Below are positions 16,614 to 61,900 of a stretch of 64,000 nucleotides of DNA, one piece after another. Each line of letters begins with the position of its first letter. Positions within the stretch are counted from its first letter, which is position 1. Source of the stretch: Tubulanus polymorphus. Taxonomy: Eukaryota > Nemertea > Palaeonemertea > Tubulaniformes > Tubulanidae. Both the position numbers and the translations under genes were made by a program. The notes under the pieces are model-generated. The model searched no databases. It was not told where the DNA came from and was given only the letters and a program-made list of their open reading frames with translations. The DNA is taken from assembly GCF_964204645.1 (NCBI RefSeq), contig NC_134032.1, positions 13,014,275 to 13,078,274 of the forward strand, given 5' to 3'.

Positions 16614-18571
16614 CAAAACAGGTTTGTAGCGGCGTAAAAGTCTATTCATTTCAGGTTGATTAATGATTGAAATTTTATCAAAATAAGAGGAATGGAATTC
16701 TTACGTCATGAGTATTGTTGGTTCGAGGTGAAAAGAGAAATCGAGGTCACTGCGGATTCAATGTGGAATTACAAGACAACGTCAGTTGGTCGTCGACTCA
16801 TGTTTGGACTTATAGATATCGTTTGGACGCAAATAATATCGAATGTAATTTTTTCTGAATCATCTTATCATCAACATCTGTAAGTAGGGCACGGGACACG
16901 TATCCAATTGTGCATTTCTTAAACGTTCGAATCAGGAAATAGGGTGTATATATGTGTTTATATACCTTAGGCCTACGTTTAGACACGTTCCGTTGCGGTC
17001 TCTCCCGATTCTGGAATTTTCAATTCTAACGCGTTCGTTTCGACCGGAATGCGTTCTATTCCGGAATAGGGTGATCTGTGACTGGTGGTGGTGAGTTTGC
17101 AATCCGGAATCTGGAATTGCGACATTTACTGAATTGCTGAATCAAGTACACAATTCTGAAAATGCGGAAAATTACTTTAATCGTTTTCATAATTAGTTCT
17201 GGTGTTTTTATTATAATGACTGGATTTATCGCAACCCACTACCGAGGATCTACATCGATACCGAGCCTGCCATCCGTCACGACTCTCATTACCAGCACAT
17301 CTACTGACTCTCTGAAGGAGGTTGATCCCCAACAACGTCCATTCCCCCTAAATCCGCCACCGCTAGAGGTAATACCATTCCCGCAGAATCCATATCCGGT
17401 TATGACCGGCTTGTTTGTCGGTCGAACTGGTAACTTGATGTTCCAATACGCGGGGCTGTATGCTATTTCTAAACACTATGATGTCATGCCGGTCATGCCG
17501 GTCAATTTTGGAATAGCGACAGCTTTCAAATTAACGGCCCCCTCTATAACGCTTAAGAAAAATAGCGTCAAAATCGTGCTCTACGAAAAAGGCGCGTGTA
17601 AATTCGATCCCAGGTTTTTCAATTTAAACATCACCGGTGTGTTCGCCAGCCGTGTCTGGGGTTATTTACAGTCGTGGAAATATTTTCAAAATGAAACCGA
17701 CGAAATTCGTAAACAATTCACGTTCCGAAAACACATAAAAAAGGCCGCCGAAAATTTCGTACAGCGTAGCGCGTACAATCTTTCATTGCTCACTAGCGCC
17801 AAAATTACGACTATCGGCATACATATAAGACGCGGCGATATGACGTTAAAATACTTATCTGAGTACGGCTACGTCATAGTTCCGGTCAGCTATATAAAAA
17901 ATGCGATGGACCGCATGACGTCATTGTACGGTGAAAATCTACTGTTTATTGTTGCGTCAGATGATATTCGGTGGTGTGAGAAAAACGTACCCAGAAAAAA
18001 TGCGAATGTAGTTTTTTCTAAAGCGAAAGACCCGGCTTTAGATCTGGCTATATTGTCCTCGTGCGATCACGTGATCATTTCGACTGGTTCGTTCGGATGG
18101 TGGGCGGCCTGGTTAGCAAATGATCCGACTATATATTACAAGGATTGGCCGCGTAAAAATTCGACACTGGCACGACAGGTCAATCATGAGGATTATTTTC
18201 ATCCACATTGGATCGGCTTAACCGGAAAGTGAAAGACGTTTGCGGTTTTGATGGGCGGATCTAGGAATATTGGAGTCCAACCGAATAGAATGTGAATCCC
18301 TCGAACAAAGGAGCCCACGCCGAGTCGCCTCGGTGTTGGATTTACATCCGTAAAAAGATGCTATTTCTGAAATGATGAGTATCAAATGCGCTGGTTGTAA
18401 CGACAATAGCAGAGAGCTCATATACTATGCTCGGCAGCGATCATTCTTCCTGATAAACCGATTCCCCGTTTCCCAGCTTGTATTCAAAGCACACTTCTTC
18501 CAATAAGCCCACTTTGATAGAAATTAATGAGAAGGGTCAATCTTTAAAAACCCTGAGAGGCCAGTGGCGCA
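16614..18571. repeat. Tandem segmental duplication, copy A (carries GT11 gene A)
   Basis: The block shares colinear sequence with 19836-22628. Shared landmarks are acaggtttgtagcg (16619 and 19841), gttggtcgtc-actcatgtt, gggcacgggacacgta, the 5' leader with acgcgttcgtttcga, the whole fucosyltransferase ORF, the post-stop gtgaaagacgttt, and the distal aaagcacacttc with gagaggcc near the end. Copy A lacks the insertions present downstream of gene B. Confidence 0.85.
17162..18232 (+). CDS. GT11 alpha-1,2-fucosyltransferase-like protein A, 356 aa
   Basis: Predicted Golgi type II glycosyltransferase that would transfer fucose from GDP-fucose to a terminal galactose in alpha-1,2 linkage (family knowledge; substrate not provable here). 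Residues 6-25 form a single signal anchor, followed by a Ser/Thr/Pro-rich stem. The catalytic domain starts at the GT11 glycine-rich entry GRTGNLMFQYA (87-97). The GDP-fucose-binding motif HIRRGD is at 221-226. The conserved C-terminal STGSFGWWAAWL is at 307-318. Length matches FUT1/FUT2-type enzymes (about 340-370 aa). The gene is a single exon with ATG at 17162. It has a tandem paralogue 3.2 kb downstream on the same strand (20387-21472). Potential N-glycosylation sites include NIT (156-158) and NET (177-179). All family motifs are intact, so it should be active. Confidence 0.9.
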   Translation: MRKITLIVFIISSGVFIIMTGFIATHYRGSTSIPSLPSVTTLITSTSTDSLKEVDPQQRPFPLNPPPLEVIPFPQNPYPVMTGLFVGRTGNLMFQYAGLYAISKHYDVMPVMPVNFGIATAFKLTAPSITLKKNSVKIVLYEKGACKFDPRFFNLNITGVFASRVWGYLQSWKYFQNETDEIRKQFTFRKHIKKAAENFVQRSAYNLSLLTSAKITTIGIHIRRGDMTLKYLSEYGYVIVPVSYIKNAMDRMTSLYGENLLFIVASDDIRWCEKNVPRKNANVVFSKAKDPALDLAILSSCDHVIISTGSFGWWAAWLANDPTIYYKDWPRKNSTLARQVNHEDYFHPHWIGLTGK

Positions 18572-19700: not shown

Positions 19701-20386
19701 TTGCTCCATATTAACTTAAAATTTGAATAAATCTTGAAGTGACATTTTTACCGTCGTGTCTGTTTGAGAATAGTTTCACTTTCGCTTTTAATCATTATCA
19801 GAACATCGGTAATCTGCTTAGACCCGTGTTCCCGCGAAAACAGGTTTGTAGCGACGAAGACGTCTGTGCATTTAAGAGAGCAGATCTATACATTCGCTGT
19901 GAAAAATTTATGTTCAAAAGTAAAATAAATCAAAAAGAAAAGGGGAAGGAATTTAGGTACGTTTCGCGTGGTAGATCACTACGTGTTCAATGCGTATATC
20001 CACAACACAGTTGGTCGTCAACTCATGTTTGGACTTCGCAAAAAATATCGGATTTAGTTTTTTCTGAACCATTTTATTATTAAAGTCTGTGAATAGGGCA
20101 CGGGACACGTATTCAATTGTGGATTTCTTGAACGTTCGAATCAGGAAGTATAAGGTGTATAGAATATGCTTAGACGTCGTAGGCCAGCAGCCTTCGTTTA
20201 GACACGTTTCGATGTGGTCTCTTTCGATTCTGGAATATTCAATTCTGACGCGTTCGTTTCGACTGGAATACGCTCTGAATATTACGGAATGGCGTAATCT
20301 GTGACTGGCGGTGCTGAGTTTATAATCCGGATTCCTTCGGACAAAAGTCATAACTTTTTACTGGATCGCTGACCACAGCCCGAATC

Positions 20387-21472
20387 ATGTACTCAACCAG
20401 GAAAAAGTGGAAAATTATTTCAATCGTTTTCATAATTAGTTCTAGCGTTATTTATATGATGAATGGATTTACCGCAACCCAGTGCCGCTGCCGAGAATCA
20501 TCATCGACGATACCGGACCTGCCATCCGTCGAGACTTTCATTAACAGTACATCTACGATGAATGTTGAACGTCAACAACTTTCATTACCCTTAAATCCTC
20601 CACCGCTAGAGATAAAATTCCCGAAGAATCCATTTCCAGTTATGACTGTCTGGTTTACGGGTCGCATTGGTAACTTGATGTACCAATACGCGGCGCTGTG
20701 TGCTATTTCTAAACACTGTGACGTCATGCCGGTCATCCCTTTCGATTTCAAACTAGCGACGGTTTTCGAATTGACAGCGCCTTCTTTAAAGCTTGCGAAA
20801 AAAGGCGTCAAAACTGTGCTCAAAGAAAAAAGCACAGGTAAGTTCGATCCAAGGTTTCGCAATTTAAACATCGCCAGTTTGCCCGCCTGTCGTATCCGGG
20901 GTTACTTACAGTCATGGAAATATTTTCAAAACGAAGCCGACGAAATTCGTAAACAATTCACATTCCGAAAACACATAAAAATGGCCGCCGAAAATTTCAT
21001 AGAGCGTAGCGCATACAATCTTCCATTGCTTACTAGCGCCAATATTACGACTATCGGCATACATATAAGACGCGGTGATATGAAGTCAACACGCTCATTT
21101 CGTTTCGGTTACGTCACAGTTCCGGTCAGCTATATAAAAAATGCGATGGACCGTATGACGTCATTGTACGGTGAAAAAGTACTGTTTATTGTTGCATCAG
21201 ATGATATTCCGTGGTGCGAGAAAAACGTACCCAGAAAAAATGCGAATGTGGTTTTTTCTAAAGCGAAAGACCCGGCTTTAGATCTGGCTATATTGTCATC
21301 CTGCGATCACATGATCATGTCGACTGGTTCGTTCGGTTGGTGGGCGGCCTGGTTAGCAAATGGAACGACTATATATTACAAGGATTGGCCGCGTAAAAAT
21401 TCGCCACTGTCACGACAGGTCAGTCATGAGGATTATTTTCCGCCATATTGGATCGGTTTATCCAGGAAGTGA
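20387..21472 (+). CDS. GT11 alpha-1,2-fucosyltransferase-like protein B, 361 aa
   Basis: Paralogue of the gene at 17162-18232, with the same architecture: signal anchor at about residues 9-28, Ser/Thr-rich stem, GRIGNLMYQYA entry, HIRRGDM motif at about 226-232 and the STGSFGWWAAWLAN motif near the C terminus. Single exon; ATG at 20387. Its N terminus is five residues longer and differs clearly from copy A in the stem and early catalytic domain. From about the middle onward long stretches are identical (for example PVSYIKNAMDRMTSLYGE). An N-linked site is created at NGT in the C-terminal region. All GT11 motifs are intact. Predicted role: Golgi fucosylation of galactose-terminated glycans. 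Substitutions near the motif I region (KSTRSFRF versus TLKYLSEY in copy A) may alter acceptor choice (inference). Confidence 0.9.
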   Translation: MYSTRKKWKIISIVFIISSSVIYMMNGFTATQCRCRESSSTIPDLPSVETFINSTSTMNVERQQLSLPLNPPPLEIKFPKNPFPVMTVWFTGRIGNLMYQYAALCAISKHCDVMPVIPFDFKLATVFELTAPSLKLAKKGVKTVLKEKSTGKFDPRFRNLNIASLPACRIRGYLQSWKYFQNEADEIRKQFTFRKHIKMAAENFIERSAYNLPLLTSANITTIGIHIRRGDMKSTRSFRFGYVTVPVSYIKNAMDRMTSLYGEKVLFIVASDDIPWCEKNVPRKNANVVFSKAKDPALDLAILSSCDHMIMSTGSFGWWAAWLANGTTIYYKDWPRKNSPLSRQVSHEDYFPPYWIGLSRK

Positions 21473-24329: not shown

Positions 24330-27300
24330 TTAACCGAGCATTCCGGAATTGACGGCTTGTTGATACGACGGACCGCCCTGGCCTTTGTTTTCCGGCGCCA
24401 GTTTGATCATGTCGTCGATTCGTAGAATGGTGATCGCGGCTTCGGTGGCGAATTTCAAACTCTTGATCTTCGATATCGCCGGCTCGAACACGCCGGCTTT
24501 CTTGTTGTCGCGAACGACGCCTTCGTACAAGTCGAGCCCGACCCTGAATACGAAAGAGAATGGAAAACTCATTTTCATCACTGAATTATTAACCAGTTAA
24601 ATGTACATACCGGTATACTGCGGCAGGATGATGTCAGGTGTGGATCTAGAGGGGGGTTTCGATCCCCCTGCTCAGCTACCAAAACAATTTTTTAAGCGTT
24701 TTCTTGAAGGAATTGTACTCAAGACAAAGTGGGCGGACAGTACCAGATAATTGGTACTCATTTCATCACTGAATTATTAACCAGTTAAATGTACATATAC
24801 TGAGGCAGGATGATGTCAGGTGCGGATCCAGAGGAAAGGGGGGTTCAGAGGACGTGAACCCCCTGCTCAGCTACCAAAAAAGTTTTCTAATCCTTTTCTT
24901 GAAGGAATGTACTCAAGACAAAGTGGGCGAACAGTACCAGGTAATCGGTACCATACCATCTTATGTTTGGCCAAACAATATGTCGTATAGGCCCCCTATC
25001 ATTAGAGATTTTAGTCGACAGTTTAACATTTATTAACATTGTTTATGAACCCGCGAAAAAATCCTGGATCGGCGCCTAATGTCATAATAAGACCCTCGTC
25101 TTAGTAGACATATCATTTCGAGGGATTTGAACTTGATGACGATGTGAAATACCCTGTCATGGTACTAACCCATACCCTAGTGGACACATTTCCTAAGGAG
25201 GGGGTTAGAATGAAATATGCAGTATTATAATTTCCGCCAGGGCGTAAGGCTTTTTTCATTAAAAGTATACCCCCTTTTTTGCCCTTTTTCTTTTCTACGC
25301 TTCACAGTGTAGAAGTACTTTCTGTAACTTTTCTTTTATGTAATAGTGATGACTGTATTTCTGTATTCTGTATTGTATCTCTTTAGTAAAGAAATACACT
25401 TATATTGCTATTATTATCATTATAATTACCATTTTAGATCGGCGTGTTCCGACTTCGTTTGAGATGAATTGTGATAGGCCCGCAGTTTCGCGACGAGGTC
25501 CGTGGAATCTTGCGCGGCGTTGACCGCGAGCTGTTTCGGAATCACCAGTAACGAACGCGCAAACTCGGCAATAGCTAACTGCTCCCTAGAACTCTGTAAC
25601 ATAAAATAAACAAGATTTTTACATACAGCTTAGCTTATACGGCAGGTGTCAATCTGCAGGCTGGAACCACCCGCCCCCTTCAGATTCGCAACCATCTGCG
25701 TGAAGTTTTGACAATATTGCTTTCTGACATGCATTTAGGACTTCACCAGAGACGTTTCTAATCGAAAATGGACTGCAAACACTAGAAACTAGGTTTTTCA
25801 CCAGAAAACTTTCAAGTAGTGATCATCCACACTTCACACAATGTTGAGTTACATGATCAGTGGGAATCAGAAATTCCCCGATATTCTCCAGACCCATTTA
25901 ACCAACGATTCCTTGATTAAATCATATCCTCATAACAGCCGTTTAATTTTACTCAAGAGGTTCCTCGTGCCACTCAACACCAGCAAAAACAACAAGATGC
26001 CAAAAATTTAGATTCCCCGACGTTTCTCCGATTTTCAAGAGAAATCAGAGCCAAACTTTCTGTGCAGGGAAAATAAAACCAGAATTCCCTGATATGTAAA
26101 AGCCCGGTGATTAAGGTTTGATTTTAGGCTGCAGGACCCAGTTCCACAGTTGTGAGTTAAGATTTGACTCACCACAGTTAACTCATTGAAAATGAACTAA
26201 TTCTAACTCTAACTCACAACTGTGGAACTGGATCCAGATTGATATGTGCACAGTTAAACAGTTTTAATATATCGAAGAGAACATACCAGAGAAGTTGCGT
26301 AATTTTCCAGATAGATCGATAACGCAGCCTCGACCGCTCCACCGCCGGGTACGAGCGATTTCGATTCTAGTACTCGTTTCACCACGCAGAGGGCGTCGTG
26401 TATCGACCGTTCCATTTCGTCGACCATGAAGTCGTTGGCACCGCGGAGAATAATTGACGCAGCTGTGCGAGCCTTCGTTCTGAAATTTAAAAAAAAAAAA
26501 AAATATACGAGATACGAGGACTTCACAGTTGATCATGACAATCTAGGATTCCATTTGTGGCAAGTGAGGATCCACCAGGTGCGCTAGTGTGCAGTAGTCA
26601 GTGGCAAAGCGTGTATCCACTAGGTTTGCTAGCACGCACAAGCAGGGTCCCTACAGATCGTCATTCCTGGATATAAGCAGTTTACAAGAAGTTAGAGAAG
26701 ATTTCATCGAACAAAGTCGCACGGAAACTGTTTGATTTTATACGCAATTTAGCACTCTCATCAAATTCCCCTGACGTTAAGCTATTTTACAAAATTCATT
26801 TTTTTCAAGACTAGGGGTCCAGGGACACCATGCCCACTTGGGAAGTGGTTTCAAATGCTCAACAATCTAACAATTTCAACATTCAACGCCCCCTGGTGAC
26901 CATTCACAAAAACCAATGACCTTGAAACTCACCACAATCATAGAACCTGTCAGCAACTACGATTTTGTAATTGATTGTGATAACAAAATATGCCTCGTTA
27001 CCAATTTAATATGGAAATACTAAGTCATTCTACTATTCACCGCCCCCTGGTGACCATATTCAAAACCCAATGACCTCGAAACTCACCACAATCATAGAAC
27101 ATGTCATGAACTACAACTTTGCAATTGATCATGGTAGCAAAATATGCCTAGGTACCAATATAATAAAGAAATACTAAGTTATTCTACTATTCAACGCTCC
27201 CTGGTGACCATATAGATAAACTTATGTCCTTAAAACTCGCAACAATCATAGATGATGTCATGAGCTACAACTTTGCAATTGATTGTGGTTACAAAATATG

Positions 27301-30300
27301 CATAGGTACGAATATAATAAAGAAACGCTAAGATATTGTATTATTCAACGCCCCCTGGTGGCCATATACAAAATCCAATTACCATGAAACTCACCACAAT
27401 CATAGAACACGTTATGAGCTACAACTTTCTAATTGATTGTGGTTGCAAAATATGCTTAGGTATCAATATTATGTGGAAAAACTTTTTCCCACTTACGAAT
27501 GAGTACTGGTGACACCAAGATGGCCGCCAATTGCGTCATAATTGGCTGATGAAAAATACCTGTCTCAGGTATAAAACATCCCTTTCCAAAGAATACCCAT
27601 CACAAATTGCAATGAGAAATGATAAACCAGTAGGAAGCTACAGGACTCAGAATTTGGGCCAAAATTAACATTTTTGGGCACTAAAAAGGTCATAGGACGG
27701 CCATCTTGAGTCCGATCGACCCAATTTTTGTTATGTTGATGGGCCCTGGGGGGATTCACATATATCCGAAAGATCAAGGTAATTGATCAAAGCGTCTTCA
27801 AAATTTCCCTCAAAAAGTTCAAAAATGTGTAAAAAGTGCTGATTTTGGCGAACAACAATGGCTGCCAGTCGGCCATCTTGATTCTGACGGGGGCAGTTTT
27901 TGGGCTGAAGATGTGTCTAGGGTAGATACATGTGTAACCCAAATATCAAGACGTTACCTTGAAGCGTCTTCAAAACTTCCCAAAATAACTGGATTCCGTC
28001 TATGGATGGACGGACGGACGGACGAAAAGTGAACGCAATAGCCCGCTGGGACTAAAGTCCCAAGTGGGCTAAAAAGTCAGAATTCCCCGACTTTTCACCG
28101 ATTTCCTGTTAAGTGGCCACCCTGGCTATCTTACGTACCCTTTGATAAGGATCAGCTCATCGTCGCAGATACGTTCCTGCACGACTTCATCGGCCTGACC
28201 GAGATTAGTGGCGTCGAATGACTCATCTCCTTCTAGATTGGCCATCGTCATAACTAACTGACCTGCAGAGAAAATACACAAGCAAATGAAAATACACATT
28301 CGAAGTTCATTGTGTTACCGTCCCTATTTATCTGCTGTTTATCTTTAATTTTCAGGAAATGGTCCAACGATTTGAATTCTTGTGCGTAAATTCTGAGCTC
28401 ATAGCATATAAATATCACTGTTCCCACAGTTACATGACTTAAAAATTCCCAAGTATTTCATGGTTGATTTATCCGAATGGAAAATGGGGCCTACATAAAA
28501 ATGGACAGATATCATTATACTACATTTTAATGGTTACTGGTTGATTAAGGTGACTTTTCAAGAGAAATTGCTGAAGAAAGTTGCGTTGGCAAATGCAATG
28601 TGTGAAATGTAAATGAATTTCCAAAATATTTCCCTGATTTGAGGAAAATTTTTCAAATTTCCAGACTGGGAATTATTTTTTCCAAAATTCCGAAGTTTTT
28701 CCCAATTTCAATGATCAAGATATCCATTTTTCACAAATTATCGCATCAACCCGATAAAGCACACTTACCTCCGGTGGCTTTAGCGATACGTTTCAGATCG
28801 GCCTTCTTACAACGTCGCACGGCCATCGCGCCGACCTCGACGAAATACTTCAAACACAGATCATCGATTCCACCCGTCGTGAGGATCACGTTGGCGCCGG
28901 TCGCGAGGATTTTCTCGATTCGTTCCTTCGTGATGTCGGATTCCCTGGCGAAATAAAATAGATCACAATACGATGTGGTAGGCTTTCGACCGTTTGATGA
29001 TGAACATCGGTGAGGGTTCGTTCAGATCAGGGAACCAAAAATTCCTTGATTAAATAAAGTTATCCTTAGTGAGAGCTGTTTCTTATCAAGATGTCCCTTG
29101 TGCCACTCATCATCAGCAAGAACAACAAGACACCATCAATTCAAATTCCGTGATTGAATTATAAGATATCCTCAGTGAGGGCTGTTTCTTATCAAGAGGT
29201 TCCTTATGCCACTCGTCACCATCAATTGAAATTTTCAACACTTTTCTATGATTTTCAAGAAAAGTCAGAATCCCCATATTTTTCCCTGATCTGCTGGACA
29301 AGTAATGCACTTTCTTTGATTCTGTAAATTTCGAGTTAATAAACGTACCTTTGTCTGATGGCGTCTAATTTCTGCGGGTCGGATACCAACACTTGCACGC
29401 CCATCTTCATCTTAGCTTTCTGCAGGTTGAAATCCAAACACGCGATCTTCGCGTTCGTGATCTTCTTCACCATCACTGAAATTAACAGAAATAATTTACC
29501 ATTAAATAATACACTGAAATGTCAAGTACTAGCTAACAAACAAGATCATTCTATGAAACGGCAACCAGGGATTCGGGGCAACATGCGCGCCTGGGATTGA
29601 TCTGAGAAGCCGGTCAGAAGTGTATTCCAATCGGTTCACAACTGAAGTTGGCTGACAACTTCTAAACACTCTTAAAACATAGCTTCACGTTACGATTCAT
29701 TTTAAAGAAAATTAAACGATGATAATCTGCCAACTTTCTCGTTCGAACACAACCACTTTTAACCGTCAACGTTATAAATCTAGATAATCGAGACCGAATT
29801 TACAATTGTTTCACAAATGTGATTCTAATTTCGCTAAATTCACTCGTTTTTCGAGTCGTGCGATTAAGAAATCGAAGACCTGACAATAATGTCGCATGAT
29901 CGCTGGTGTAACGAGTCAATACTTACATTGAGAAGCGACCGTGCAGTTCAACGCGTATCCGTTAATCATTTGACTCTCGCGACTGCTCTGGCCGTGCGCT
30001 TTCAAAACGTTGATAGCTTTGATCGGATAACGGTGTCCGCCTTTACCGTCGGATACCTTAATCGCGTTCGCCGCGTCGACGACCATGTTCGAGAAGAAGT
30101 CGGCGTCAGTGGAAAAACGTCAAGGGAAATTTTCTCATTCAGCAAATTATTTAAGTCATAACCAGGCCACTAGATTAGACCAACACGCCACTGATTTTAA
30201 CTAATTGTACGCGTTATTCTTATTTATGGGTGACTTAAGTGAACCTTTAATCAAACTTTGAATAAATGCAAAGATTCTTTATCACCATTCTTCCAATTTT

Positions 30301-33199
30301 TATCGCCCACGCTTCATGTCATTGTTCGGAGCTTCATCAGACATTTTCGATTGAAAATGAACTAAAAACACCAGATATTAGACATTTCATCAGCACACTT
30401 TCAAAAACTGACCATCTACACTTCACTTGTGTCCAGTATTTCCATCTGATACATTTTCAATTGAAAATTCACAAATGAATTAATCGAAAAATGAACTACA
30501 AACACGAGGTGTCTATTGGTTTTAAGTCAATAATAACAGTTAACAATTCAATACTACCATAGAATATATCCACTGGTTAACTACCATCCATTCAACAACT
30601 GGCCCCAGACAATTATCATCAAGTTTATTAAAATTGATCGTCGAGACTTCCGATTGATCCATAACTAACGACAAATATCATAATCATGTCAATAAAAGGA
30701 TATGATCCGATGACTTTGCTCGCCATGCTGGTTTTCGCTGCATTGATGATGCTGTCCTTGCCGAGTTCATCAACTCCTAACGTCAAATGTTCTTGGATGT
30801 ACTTACAAGCTTCTCTGAAATGGTAAAATCGGGCAATTTAAATTACAAATCGTCTGGCCATACAACAAAATATAAAACATTTGTTTTTCTAAGTGGACAG
30901 GAGCTGGTAACTCAACTGTTAGAGCTAACCAGTGGATAATTGCCATAATGACAATTGAAATAGCTTTGTAACTCTGATCCACCAGTTAACTCTTAACCAA
31001 CGTCTGAGCAACCGGCCCCATATATCTTATTGCTGAAACTTCCACGACGTTTTTTCAAGTAAAATTCCGGAACTTAAATCCTGCAAATATTCATATTAAT
31101 CAGACCACTCTTATTATCCCCACTTCAGGTACAGCTCTTAGGGCTTAGGGGTGTCCTCCTCAAATATGTCAATTTTCAATTAATATGTAGTTGTAATCAA
31201 ACAAAATTTGTATTCCCATGTTCATATATTTGAGAAAATAAATTCATACAGTCATTCACTTTTAAAGCAGTTTATAAGCAGTACTCACTTGCAAGCTAAT
31301 CTATATCCAGTTATAATCGATGTGGGATGTATTTTATTTGTCACCAGTTCATCGGCGTTCTTTAACAACTCCGCAGCAATAATCACCTGTACGAAAAAAT
31401 AAGAAAATGTCTATACGTCAAAAATCTTCGAAAGGGTCCAGTTTTATGCGAGTATAACCTGGAATCACCCCTTCTAGGATTCATAGCATAACCGAACTAA
31501 TTCCATGACTCCATGATATTTTTGTGTGGCAACCAATTCAGACAAATAGGTAGAGTGAACTTCGCCTTACTCGGACATGGGCAACTCGGACTTATGGCTA
31601 ACTCTTGACAAAAACAAAATCATTTTTCTGACTTCCTAACATATGATATCCATAACTCGGACTTTGTTTCATGGATTTTACGGGCCCCAGTTTGTCTGAG
31701 TTTAAGGTAAGGTTTACTGTAGAATTTTTTTAAACCAGAACTTATAAATTTCTGAAATTCAACATTTTAGATACCAATGCGTGAGCGTGTCTGGGAATTT
31801 CGCTGCACTTACAACAGAAGTCGTTCCGTCGCCAACTTCCTCGTCCTGAAGCTGAGCCAACTCAACGAGAATCTTTGCCGCAGCATGTTCTACTTCCAAC
31901 ATTTTCAGTATGGTGGCGCCATCATTCGTGATCGTCACGTCCTACAAATAATGATCATTATTGGCAGGTGTTGCTAGTGAGTAAGATATCAATCACCAAG
32001 TGCAAATACGAATTCTAATTCTACTGGCAAGTGAGGATCCACCAGGTGAGCTAGCGTTCAGCAGGACATCAACTACTGTGGCGATAGAGGATTCCACTTG
32101 TGGCAAGTGAGGATCTACCAGGTGCGCTAGTGTGCTGTAGGACATCAACTACTGCAGCAATATAGGATTCTACTTGTGGCAAGTGAGGATCCACCAGGTG
32201 TGCTAGTGTTCAGCAGGACATCAACTCCTACAGCAATAGAAGGTCCTCCAGGTCTGCAGGTGTTGCAAACAGTTTCTAGGTCTTTCGCGCTACAATTTCT
32301 TCCACATTTCAATTGAATTAATTCTGTAAGATTCACCAAAACTTACCCCGATATCATCAACCAACATCTTGTCCAACCCGACAGGACCTAAGCTGCTTTT
32401 CACGATATTAGCTATGCTTGAAGCTGCCATAACTAAAAACAATTAACCAATTAGTATTACTGTATTAGTAACTAATTATCACGTAAACATCTGAAAGCAG
32501 GGGACCAGAAACAAATAGCAAAGAGATTTACAACAGTTTCCTGTTGAAAACCTATGTAAAAGAGAATTGGTGGCTTTACTAACTGAATCCTGAAAGTGGC
32601 CGGTTTACGACGCCTCTGTCCAAAAAGACTGAGACTAGCAAGCTTTGCACGTACTTGAATCAGGGCCTGGTCATCATTGAGAGCGATATACCACACGCAC
32701 TTAAGGTTTCCAGTGAAGTGGTACTTAGGATTCTGTTGAAAATCCCCAGGTCAAATGAGTCTAAATAAAGTGACAAGCCCTGTCTTGTCCATTTACTTTG
32801 AAACTCGAAGTCCATTTGGCGACAGCTAATCCCAGCTCATGTGTATCTAGGACCCTCATCGTAAGTGTGGGTAATTCTTTTTTAAGCTTAAATTTTCTCA
32901 AGCGTGGATTATTTCCAATTAACAACGTGTCCGCAGGATGAATCACTTGATGGATTTTTCTAGAAGGAACCGGCAAAAGTGACGGTCGGAGCCGCCCGGC
33001 CGGCGGGCAAGTCTGGTGAGAATTAAACCAGCGTTCACTGGACCCCAAACAGTGGTAGGCGACTGTCGCACCTCTTCAAAGAAAGAAAATAAAATCCTCT
33101 CCCATAAAAATATAAATATATCCTACCGTTTTGTGTCCTGATCGATTGTCCGGTGGTTCTTTCACCACCGACGGACAGAGTTGCCATAGTGTCAGCCAT
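24330..33199 (-). CDS. TCP1: T-complex protein 1 subunit alpha (CCT1), 12 coding exons, 558 aa
   Basis: Alpha subunit of the cytosolic group II chaperonin TRiC/CCT, which folds actin, tubulin and other clients with ATP. Coding exons in transcript order: 33199-33127, 32432-32347, 31941-31813, 31386-31289, 30814-30704, 30108-29927, 29475-29349, 28944-28769, 28262-28139, 26479-26287, 25593-25430, 24543-24330; they sum to 1677 nt in one frame. Visible motifs are NDGATIL (residues 59-65), the ATP-site GDGTTS (90-95), the long CCT1-specific run in exon 10 with [10 protein letters not shown] and [19 protein letters not shown], and the C-terminal [18 protein letters not shown]. Human CCT1 has 556 residues, so the gene is complete. 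All introns are GT-AG except intron 5, which is AT-AC. Start chosen at 33199 ([19 protein letters not shown]). It faces NMD3 head-to-head. Confidence 0.95.
25430..25593 (-). CDS. TCP1: TCP1 exon 11
   Basis: Part of the CCT1 entry, noted separately because no long ORF marks it. It encodes [19 protein letters not shown] and continues through [19 protein letters not shown]. The NAAQDSTD stretch carries the conserved aspartate of the group II chaperonin ATPase. Acceptor ttacag, donor gtaatt; joins in phase to exon 12 (LKW|VGLD). Confidence 0.9.
25647..26110. repeat. Dispersed repeats in CCT1 intron 10
   Basis: Begins with gtcaatctgcaggctggaac, the tip of the family F element (see 38752-39150), followed by 'caccagaaaactttcaag'. 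From about 25855 a second repeat with 'attccccgacgtttctccga' and 'gaggttcctcgtgccactca' is shared with 29035-29290. Boundaries are unclear. Confidence 0.45.
26134..26236. mobile_element. Palindromic MITE family B, good copy
   Basis: ggacccagttccacagttgt at the left and acaactgtggaactggatcc at the right are terminal inverted repeats. The middle contains gttaactcattgaaaatgaa. About 103 bp, in CCT1 intron 10, no coding capacity. Confidence 0.8.
26548..26640. repeat. 76-bp-family repeat, two diverged units
   Basis: Contains ttgtggcaagtgaggatcca with ccaggtgcgctagtgtgcag, followed by a second diverged unit (agtggcaaagcgtgtatcca with ctaggtttgctagcacgc). Lies in CCT1 intron 9. Confidence 0.6.
26887..27502. 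repeat. 154-bp tandem array, four units
   Basis: Units start with cgccccctggtg (or cgctccctggtg) at 26887, 27041, 27195 and 27349, giving an exact 154-base period three times over. Each unit contains aaactcaccacaatcataga, then a variant of 'atgagctacaactttgcaa' and 'acaaaatatgc'. The array sits in CCT1 intron 9 and is followed by a unique block and a terminal stem-loop (28040-28074), suggesting it is the core of one larger element spanning about 26880-28075. Confidence 0.9.
27503..28075. mobile_element. 3' part of the array-bearing element, ending in a stem-loop
   Basis: Has two related blocks with 'ggccatcttgagtccgat' and 'ggccatcttgattctgac', each followed by 'atcaag' and 'gcgtcttcaaaa', then a GGAC tetranucleotide run at 28010-28025. 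It ends in the stem-loop tagcccgctgggac / gtcccaagtgggcta followed by aaaag. A central minisatellite plus a terminal hairpin is the layout of non-autonomous Helitron-type and mollusc 'pearl' elements (family knowledge). Assignment here is inference. Confidence 0.5.
29035..29290. repeat. Dispersed repeat in CCT1 intron 7
   Basis: Two diverged copies of a segment with 'aaattccttgattaaata', 'agagctgtttcttatcaag' and 'gtgccactcatc' follow one another here. A third relative lies at about 25855-26110 in intron 10. Confidence 0.5.
30109..30703 (-). other. TCP1: AT-AC (U12-type) intron 5 of TCP1
   Basis: On the minus strand exon 5 ends ...GTCATCGGATC and the intron begins ATATCCTTTT, which matches the U12 5' splice-site consensus ATATCCTTT exactly. 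The 3' end reads TTTTCCCTTGACGTTTTTCC and then AC, with CCCTTGAC a close match to the U12 branch-point consensus TTCCTTRAC about a dozen bases from the AC. No GT donor or AG acceptor near these ends preserves the frame. With AT-AC splicing the join reads [18 protein letters not shown], which follows the family sequence with no gap. Confidence 0.9.
32011..32255. repeat. 76-bp tandem repeat, three units, in CCT1 intron 2
   Basis: 'tggcaagtgaggat' recurs at 32025, 32101 and 32177, an exact 76-base period. Each unit continues with a variant of 'ccaccaggtgcgctagtgt', then 'caggacatcaactactg'. The same unit occurs singly or in pairs at 9040, 26548 and 63862. Confidence 0.85.
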
Positions 33200-39856: not shown

Positions 39857-40413
39857 TTATCATATATAGATCTAATTTCCTTGGGGTTTTTTCTTTGTTA
39901 AATGTTTGCATCATTCTCAAGCATATGACCACGGAATACTGAATGCAGTAAACGATTTCCTAATTCGGCTATGGCCAGTTCAGACTTTAGATTGGCTTGG
40001 GCGAAATCATTTTCCGACGTCCTTACGCGTTTTGACCCTCACTCATCTCTGATCAATTTTGCCGGTCCGAGTTTAGTTTAGTTTTACTCGATCCTGAACC
40101 CGTCTACACCAGGACGTGCTGCCATCTACTGTTAAAAAAATCTATATAAAATTGTTGCTACAACATATCGAGTTTCAATAAATTCATCATATCTACGCAC
40201 GAATTACTCCAATTTTGTTCATATTCTTGCTTTTTGTTAATTAAAAACAAATTTTGACTTATGATAGATTTGTCTATCTGTCAATAGAATTATTCGAAAT
40301 ATTTGAATGGTGTAAATCGATGCAACACTCGGGGTAGCCTAGAAACTCGTGTAAACATTCGTGAGAAAATTCTGAAAAAGAGCGCATAGTTTTTTTAACA
40401 CGGAACCGAAGTG

Positions 40414-41304
40414 ATGGAAGGGTTGGAGCTCATAGAACCGACTGAACTTTACAACATTCTCAATCAATCGACCGAATATCCGTGCGTTAGTGATCAAAAC
40501 TATCTACTGCTATTGGACGCTCGGTCGAAGTGCGAATTCAACGAAAGCCACGTTATCACTTCGAAAAAGTCGCCCGAAGACGACGAAGGGAATTTTATCG
40601 TGCCGTACAATGCTGAACTGGAATGTAAAGAGCATGTCATTGTGTACGACGGCAACACGCAGTCGGTTGAAGAGCCAAGTCGAGCCGTTCGAAGCGCCTC
40701 GATCATGTTCAACAACGGCAGCAAGAACAACGTGAAAATACTCCGCGGCGGTTACGAAGAATTTTCGGCGCTGTATCCGTTCTTGCGCACGCAGGAGACC
40801 ATCTACATGCCGCAGGAACTGGAAGATTTCAAAACCTACCCGATAGAAATTATACCCGGTTTGCTTTATCTGGGCAACAAGCGCCAAGGCAGCGCTCCTT
40901 ACATTTTCAAAGACGTTAAAATTAAGTGCGCCATCAACTGTACGATGAACGAAGCCGAAGACGTTGCTCCAGAGAATCCGGACGTTATAGACGTTCCGGT
41001 GACTGATTGCGCGGAGGCTGATATTTCGAAATACTTCGAAAAAGCTTGCCGCGTAATAGACAATTACAAGAACAGGGACCAAGTGGTTTTGGTGTATTCG
41101 GATTTAGGAATAAGTCGTAGCGTGGCTATCATTTTGGCGTATTTGATTCATACTTATAATTATCCGTTGGATGCGGCTTATAAGCACGTCCAGCAGTGCG
41201 GAATGACCGTGCGTCCGAATCGAGGATTTATTCAACAATTGTCTAAATGGGAAGAAACTAAATTCGGGGAATGCGTAACGGATATCAGTGATCCAAGATT
41301 GTAA
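40414..41304 (+). CDS. STYXL1: STYXL1 (MK-STYX)-like pseudophosphatase, 296 aa, intronless
   Basis: Residues about 8-125 form a rhodanese/CDC25-like domain and 140-285 a dual-specificity phosphatase-like domain. The phosphatase signature HCxxGxxR is replaced by YSDLGISR (228-235): Tyr for His and Ser for the catalytic Cys, with the Arg kept. The rhodanese loop also lacks the catalytic cysteine (VYDGNTQ). Both sites should therefore be catalytically dead, as in vertebrate MK-STYX, which acts as a binding regulator in stress-granule and MAPK-linked pathways (family knowledge). PNRGFIQQL and the end GECVTDISDPRL match the STYXL1 C terminus. The first ATG with a good context (gaagtgATGg) is 40414. 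The gene is one exon, 615 bases after NMD3 on the same strand. Confidence 0.88.
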   Translation: MEGLELIEPTELYNILNQSTEYPCVSDQNYLLLLDARSKCEFNESHVITSKKSPEDDEGNFIVPYNAELECKEHVIVYDGNTQSVEEPSRAVRSASIMFNNGSKNNVKILRGGYEEFSALYPFLRTQETIYMPQELEDFKTYPIEIIPGLLYLGNKRQGSAPYIFKDVKIKCAINCTMNEAEDVAPENPDVIDVPVTDCAEADISKYFEKACRVIDNYKNRDQVVLVYSDLGISRSVAIILAYLIHTYNYPLDAAYKHVQQCGMTVRPNRGFIQQLSKWEETKFGECVTDISDPRL

Positions 41305-42731: not shown

Positions 42732-45661
<2,930 letters not shown>

Positions 45662-58962: not shown

Positions 58963-61900
58963 TTATGTCTTGTACTTGTTTTTGTGTTTTATGACGCCGT
59001 TTGTGCTGTTTTTGCGCAGATATCCGTTCGATTTGCGGTGATTCACGAATAACGTCTCTTCTTCCGTATCCGAGCCCGACACCATCAGACTACTGTGTTG
59101 CATCTTGCCTGAAAAACAGAAGGCGAATACTTGACTTTTATATACAACTTCCCTTTTGTCGTTGTATATCTCCCTGAACGGATAGTAAGAGCTTGAGTAA
59201 TCGTCTTAATCAATCTTCAGGACCGGATTCCTAGTCGTAGCTTAGCCACAATACCAGTATGAGACTATCTTAGAATTAGTTCTATAGCCAATCTATACAA
59301 CTTGAAACTAGTATCAGGATCTAAGACCATTTTCGGACTTGGCTCTCGACTATGGAACCAGCCTCAGATGATTACTTAAGGTTAGAGGTCATGAACTGGG
59401 AATTGAATGTAGGAGCAGATACTAATTAGTTAGATCGATTGTAAAAACAATTTTCGAAAAAGATTGACACATTTTTTGTCAGAAATGGGCAGATTTTCTG
59501 GTGCCGCGAACTTCGTTGTAATGAGGTCCCGCTATATATAGAACTATCGGTTATAACAAACATATTTTCTGGTATCCTGAAGTTCATTGTATTGTAACAA
59601 GGTTACGCTCTAACTAGCCGTTGTTCCCGGTTCTAGGGGTAATCTAGAACTAATAATCATTTTCATTGACTAAATCTAGAACTAAACTACTAATTACTGT
59701 AAGCGACTAAATTCTGAGACTCGAATTAATCTAGACGATGCTTAGATACACGATTTTCTCTTTTCGCGTTTTGATATCTTCCTTTTAATATCTAACCATT
59801 ATAACGTGCATTTGAAAACTTTGTTATATGTTCCTTATTTGATTATTTTGATAAAGAATCAGAAGAGCTACATATAATATTAAACTAAACATGGCATTTT
59901 TCAGTTTTAATTGATTCAACGATCAAATCAACGCGTTTTAATCAACTAATTGAAATCATCGAACTCTAATTTAGCTCCGGTTTGTAAGTCGTTTTTTTTT
60001 TCATTAATTCTTCCCGTAGGAATAGATATAAATGACGTATACATATAAACATGAACACTCATCCCTAGACGAAATGGTTTATTCCGATGAAAGTTCCCTA
60101 CATGAAATTCCAGGCACCTATTAATCAAACCAGAGGTTGAGCGCCAGCGCAATCTTCCTCGAGGACGAGTCCTCTGATGTCATTTAGAATGCTGGCATGC
60201 ACGCGGTTATCGATCACAATTATGTAACGATGAAAAAATAATATCCATATTTTGCACCTAAGGATTTCTGTAAACAGAGTACAATATTTCCAATGGCGTG
60301 TGTATTTTAAGCTGTAGCCAATTAGCTCGAAAGCCCGTTGTCTGAGACTGTGTTTAATACAGTCGGGAACCACCCGAAGTGTGCTGATAAAATATCTAAT
60401 GTCTGGTGTTTGTAGTTCATTTTCAATTGAAAATGTTTAGGCCGAAGTCCTGAACACATTGTGAAGTTTGGAAGAATCATTGGAAGCACAACAGAGTTAA
60501 ACCATCAAATGTCTGAGGGCAGTGCAGGATCCACACAGATGACATACTGGTCATACTGGTGTCCGTAAAAAATCAACTTCTTCATTTTCTCATGGTTTTT
60601 ACTAAATTGATTTGGATTGATTTTAACTGAATTAACTAAAATCGGTAACTTGAATTGTAAGGGTTACCTTATTTTTAGGGTAAAATAACAAATCTGACCG
60701 TAAAACTTAAGCGATTACGCATTCTGGTGATTTTCAGGATAATATTCTGAGGGTTATGATGAAATACGTGACTGAATTACATTGATTCATATGATAGATT
60801 TGCTCGATTGAACCTAGTCGGGGTCGGGGTCGTCTTACATACCACGCATCAAGGCAACTTTACGATATCTCCCTGTTTAGAAAAAAGAGTTTCAATGGAA
60901 GCAAAGAAGGCTGATACATAAGCTCAGTTGCAAAATCATGACTTAAGTCCAAAAGTTGTCTTGGACTGGTCTAAAAGTTGTTAGATTGGTAATGGAACCA
61001 AAACGAGCCAAGACTGGTTTAGATAAGCTTTAGATGATCTTAGACTGGTCCCAAACCTAAGCTATGACTGTGCAACTGGCTTTTTTGTAAAGCCCGCCAA
61101 ATTCAGATCATTCGGGACGCTCGAAATATATCTTCATTAAACACCATGAAGTCGTTCATTCAAATCATCACCATGAAGTCGACCATCGGTCACCATATAA
61201 ATCATCACAATTTTCTTCAAATCCCGATTAATGTACAGTACATAAATCGGGATTTAAAAATTGCGAATTAAAGACTTACACTTAATTGAATTGAAAGTAC
61301 AGTACTTTCAATTCAATTTACTAAGTGTAAGTCTTCATTTGGATAAGTCGTCAAGATAAAGATTTTCTCAACTACGGCAACTTATGCAACTGCTTTTTAC
61401 ATACACTTATAACGTAATGAAGACAGACGACCAAAAATGATAACCAGATTCCGTTTACCCTTTCAGTGCGTCTACACCGCAGTGCGGTCTATAAATCGGT
61501 GATAGATTTTGCTAGTACACGGCACTGCGGTGTATTGATGTAATCAGTAATTAGTAATTACCTCTCTTGAAAACTGGCAGCGCCTGTCAAACATAGTGAA
61601 ATACTAGTAACTAACGATACACCGCGCCGCGGTGTAGACGCACTATAGTGGTATTCCCGTTATTCAACACACTAGGGTGGAATTTTTTAGAGTTTTCAAA
61701 TTATCTCCAGCACTATAGAGTATTAATTAGTCAGCACTGAAAGGGTTAAAATCCGGAGTAAAATGATCTGAATGAAGCGAGCGTAAACTCAGGCATTAAC
61801 TCTTATTATCATATCTTACTTGGTAACAGTTCGAGTTTATCTTTATTTGCATTTTCGAATTCGTCTGGAAGCAGTTGATATCGATGGCGTTTTTTCGGCC

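Follow-up and report, generated by a model that had tools for sequence, protein, structure and literature searches.

Does the CCT1 (TCP1 alpha) gene of Tubulanus polymorphus contain an intron that is removed by the minor spliceosome, and would such an intron matter for the supply of chaperonin? The question arises from a 64,000-nt stretch of contig NC_134032.1 (hereafter the window), in which the original prediction had placed an AT-AC, U12-type intron within the CCT1 gene. The coordinates given for that intron proved to be exact, and the gene, for which no strand had been stated, lies on the minus strand (Table 1). We consider it about 96% probable that intron 5 of TCP1/CCT1 is a U12-type AT-AC intron removed by the minor spliceosome, one that is most likely old and without a special control function.

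Table 1. Coordinates of the CCT1 gene and of the elements at the exon 5/exon 6 join (window positions)
Feature	Position	Strand	Description
CCT1 (TCP1 alpha) gene	24330..33199	minus	start to stop codon, 12 coding exons, 558 aa
CCT1 exon 5	30704..30814	minus	111 nt
CCT1 intron 5, AT-AC, U12-type by sequence	30109..30703	minus	595 nt, phase 2
Intron 5 5' splice site ATATCCTTT	30695..30703	minus	9/9 to RTATCCTTT
Intron 5 branch-site match TCCCTTGAC	30119..30127	minus	8/9 to TTCCTTRAY
Intron 5 3' terminal AC	30109..30110	minus	
CCT1 exon 6	29927..30108	minus	182 nt

The CCT1 gene and its exon 5/exon 6 join

The coding exons measure 73, 86, 129, 98, 111, and 182 nt (exons 1-6) and 127, 176, 124, 193, 164, and 214 nt (exons 7-12, the last including the stop codon). 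The encoded protein matches Pfam Cpn60_TCP1 with an E value of 8.4e-163, and solved alpha-subunit chains align over its residues 7-557 (best E 3.6e-275). Nine distinct solved sequences match it at E values of 1e-200 or below, every one of them subunit alpha; the best non-alpha CCT subunit is gamma, at E 8.2e-53 with a partial CCT1 query. Judged from these matches, the product is full-length CCT1 (TCP1 alpha) rather than one of the other CCT subunits. Scans of viral contigs with CCT1 gave no confirmed relative, and a scan of prokaryote contigs returned only two archaeal loci and no eukaryotic relative. Apart from intron 5, all ten introns of the gene have GT-AG ends. The longest of them, intron 9 (1659 nt), holds at 27001-27480 what appear by eye to be about three repeated units of ∼155 bases each.

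Several neighboring features of the window can be named. The CCT1 start at 33199 (minus strand) stands head to head with that of NMD3 at ∼33560 (plus strand), a gene identified by Pfam NMD3 in two stretches; some 360 bases separate the two presumed start codons, and it is possible that the genes share a promoter. A tubulin gene, alpha-like by reading, occupies 43937-45658 on the plus strand, ∼10.7 kb from the CCT1 start, with Pfam Tubulin and Tubulin_C matches across 44474-45658. CCT counts tubulin among its clients, and the proximity of the two genes is probably a coincidence. Also on the plus strand, two adjacent open frames of glycosyltransferase family 11 (17144-18229 and 20357-21469) form an apparent tandem pair, and a further open frame (40402-41301) combines rhodanese-like and dual-specificity phosphatase domains.

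We assessed the join between exons 5 and 6 by listing the candidate pairs that keep the reading frame and introduce no stop, with donors 30780..30601 and acceptors 30200..30031 as the near range. This yields 84 pairs, comprising 61 AT-AC, 22 GT-AC, and 1 AT-AG; GT-AG and GC-AG pairs are absent from this set (0/84). The top protein score of the 84 belongs to 30703/30109 (134), which is free of gaps against the corresponding stretch of solved CCT1. The two runners-up, at 126 and 125, each have an indel; the first lengthens the protein by four residues and the second shortens it by one. The best-scoring pair joins SKVIGS to DADFF, as had been predicted, and this junction aligns to the solved CCT1 chains without a gap. 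The transcript is thus likely, as far as frame and protein fit can tell, to be spliced at 30703/30109.

Class signals of intron 5

At the donor junction (30703), the exon ends in ...GTCATCGGATC and the intron opens with ATATCCTTTTATTG; at the acceptor junction (30109), the intron closes with ...TTTCCCTTGACGTTTTTCCAC and exon 6 begins with TGACGCCGAC. Two features named in the original prediction, a donor of exact U12 consensus and a branch-point-like motif at the right distance, were both recovered (Table 1). The branch-site A lies at 30120, 11 nt upstream of the intron's final base; this spacing fits the U12 class, because the published optimum for the distance from branch site to 3' end is 11-13 nt (review, PMC3584512). 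The consensus strings used here, RTATCCTTT and TTCCTTRAY, agree with the examples in Table 1 of PMC7367187. By the same measures, the remaining ten CCT1 introns look different: their donors score 3-6 of 9 against the U12 string, compared with 9/9 for intron 5, and 4-6 of 6 against the major-class GTRAGT, compared with 2/6 for intron 5. Their best branch-like matches, taken from the same 45-nt stretch, reach 5-7 of 9.

Two further properties of the intron bear on its class. Of the 20 nt that precede the terminal dinucleotide, 80% are pyrimidines, some of them belonging to the branch site itself; in the other ten introns of CCT1, all GT-AG, the figure lies between 55% and 85%. Intron 5 therefore does not clearly show the missing polypyrimidine tract that its class would lead one to expect. 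Its phase, 2, accords with the U12 class since U12 introns have a reported bias against phase 0 (PMC7367187). Within the intron, positions 30325-30468 carry a fragment of a dispersed repeat, with copies elsewhere in the window that include 60377-60436 (92% over 60 bases) and 25735-25837 (75% over 104 bases). A close published likeness for the signals as a set is the human SMYD2 U12-type AT-AC intron, given as ATATCCTTTA...CTTTCCTTGACT...AGCAC in Table 1 of PMC7367187. Its donor is identical to that of intron 5 over nine bases, its branch site is nearly identical, and it too ends in AC; it lies in a different gene and differs in phase, being a phase 1 intron.

How often would such motifs arise by chance? 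Counting both strands of the window, 4 of 127,984 nonamers match RTATCCTTT exactly, and 21 of 7,375 ACs follow a branch match that scores 8/9 or better and places its A 10-14 nt upstream of the last base. The product of these two frequencies is 8.9e-8, a figure that applies to one fixed junction and assumes independence. The strict combination of ATATCCTTT, CCTTRAC, and AC is found twice in the window, both times with the donor and branch site of intron 5; the acceptors are 30109 and 30105, the latter of which shifts the frame. In 100 dinucleotide shuffles, the strict combination appeared 0.13 times on average and at most 4 times. Because free motifs are less striking in 64 kb, the weight of the evidence lies in their coincidence with the exon join demanded by the protein and not in the motifs alone. 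A loose motif scan of the window was uninformative and was dropped: it found 109 pairs, and shuffled sequence yielded 77.8 on average.

Minor-spliceosome snRNA genes and the mode of removal

A search for minor-spliceosome snRNAs had been proposed as a check on the original prediction, and we carried it out for U12 and U6atac over the genome of 267,791,593 bases in 77 contigs. U12 snRNA gave one match of 111.8 bits over the full model length (gathering 53), which Rfam confirms on the fetched stretch. The U12 gene contains GUAAGGAA, the part of this snRNA that base-pairs with branch sites. U6atac gave three matches (gathering 33), which score 96.5, 93.5, and 40.5 bits. The first two are strong, contain AAAGGAGAG, and terminate in a U run; by eye, the AAAGGA of U6atac can pair with the UCCUUU of the intron 5 donor. 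The third match (C8:15260197-15260307, corresponding to 1501-1611 of L006) has no final U run and is perhaps a decayed copy or pseudogene. Searches for U12 and U6atac in 14 control genomes gave no matches, and neither did Rfam on the 64-kb window. Since the genome contains a full-length U12 gene and three U6atac matches, two of them strong, it is likely that the minor spliceosome is present in this organism. The earlier claim that the animal keeps a working minor spliceosome is thereby supported as to retention, through the U12 and U6atac genes; that the whole machinery works is an inference.

In the reading that we prefer, the donor ATATCCTTT would be recognized by U11 and then by U6atac, and the branch site CCCTTGAC would be recognized by U12. 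Intron 5 would then be excised by the minor spliceosome, with the neighboring exons otherwise joined by major-class splicing.

Two other accounts of this join deserve consideration. The true junction could be an ordinary GT-AG or GC-AG pair, with the AT-AC motif a coincidence, and when the range is widened to donors 30813..30171 and acceptors down to 29961, there are indeed 27 GT-AG and 24 GC-AG pairs that preserve the reading frame. The near range contains none of this type, however, and the 12 of these 51 that come closest in length make a protein that is 4-29 residues shorter. All 12 of those inspected lose a 10-residue stretch, and in 8 of the 12, the protein takes up intron-derived residues starting SYPFIDM. 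We regard an ordinary pair as the true join as extremely improbable. The same counts qualify the earlier claim that only the AT-AC pairing keeps the CCT1 frame: with 84 near pairs and 51 wider-range pairs keeping it, "only this pairing" is too strong, yet 30703/30109 fits best and the AT-AC conclusion stands. Alternatively, the intron could have AT-AC ends and still be removed by the major (U2) spliceosome, as are some sodium-channel AT-AC introns. Its pyrimidine-rich 3' end would suit such removal, and having AT-AC ends is not enough to settle which spliceosome acts: one intron with such ends, human SCN4A intron 21, requires the major one (PMC2831892). However, the U2-type sodium-channel AT-AC introns described in that paper all have G at +5, whereas intron 5 shares their AT-AC ends and has C at this position. 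The 9/9 U12 donor, the well-placed U12 branch site, and the presence of U12 and U6atac genes likewise speak against removal by the major spliceosome, to which we assign a very small chance indeed.

Relation to mammalian TCP1 and the question of control

TCP1 was already known to carry a minor intron: the mouse and human genes are treated as minor-intron genes (PMC6717393, PMC8034651), a precedent that the original prediction does not mention. The mouse Tcp1 minor intron is reported as 350 bp, compared with the 595 nt of intron 5, and is retained in six tissues, in liver more than in the other five (PMC6717393). Patients with minor-spliceosome disease are reported to have altered splicing around minor introns, that of TCP1 being one of them (PMC8034651). 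The mammalian intron and intron 5 are alike in gene and in intron class, and the two are likely to be orthologous as far as this comparison goes. Intron 5 is most likely an old intron of the kind known in mammalian TCP1 and retained by descent, and we infer that it is ancestral. A mouse Tcp1 exon that by its place is probably the second spans 86 nt (PMC5063418), the length of CCT1 exon 2 here, a match that serves as a side hint that the structure of the CCT1 gene may be old. Against wide conservation of the TCP1 minor intron, two fly U12-intron studies mention neither TCP1 nor a chaperonin in their main text (PMC7644725, PMC2831892). TCP1 is also unnamed in a pan-eukaryote survey (PMC10639083), and in PMC11529804, it appears solely as a protein.

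The original prediction went further and proposed a possible rate-limiting control point for chaperonin production. That slow U12 splicing can limit expression is a published general proposal (PMC3584512), and the greater retention of the mouse Tcp1 minor intron in liver means that retention varies by tissue. Other mouse data count against slow splicing of intron 5 as a limit on the supply of chaperonin in this organism. In thymus, the Tcp1 minor intron is reported to show low retention, significantly below that of the major intron upstream of it, and liver gave no similar significant difference (PMC6717393). In addition, PMC7367187 states that differences in the excision rates of U12 introns are too small for a meaningful effect on expression, and nothing in the window bears on regulation. 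Neither the mouse Tcp1 retention data nor this statement on rates supports the proposed control point, and we think it improbable that intron 5 acts as one. A tissue- or stress-dependent splicing brake on CCT1, through which the supply of chaperonin would track minor-spliceosome activity, seems to us slightly less probable still.

With a minor intron already on record for TCP1 in mouse and human, the U12-type intron 5 described here looks real but ordinary. If its position matches that in mammals, it would add one more taxon to a known TCP1 intron and would not open a new question. The earlier remark that gene finders assuming GT-AG will misannotate this join is reasonable. For annotators, intron 5 offers a clean example: a gene finder restricted to GT-AG pairs would lose conserved residues at the exon 5/exon 6 join.
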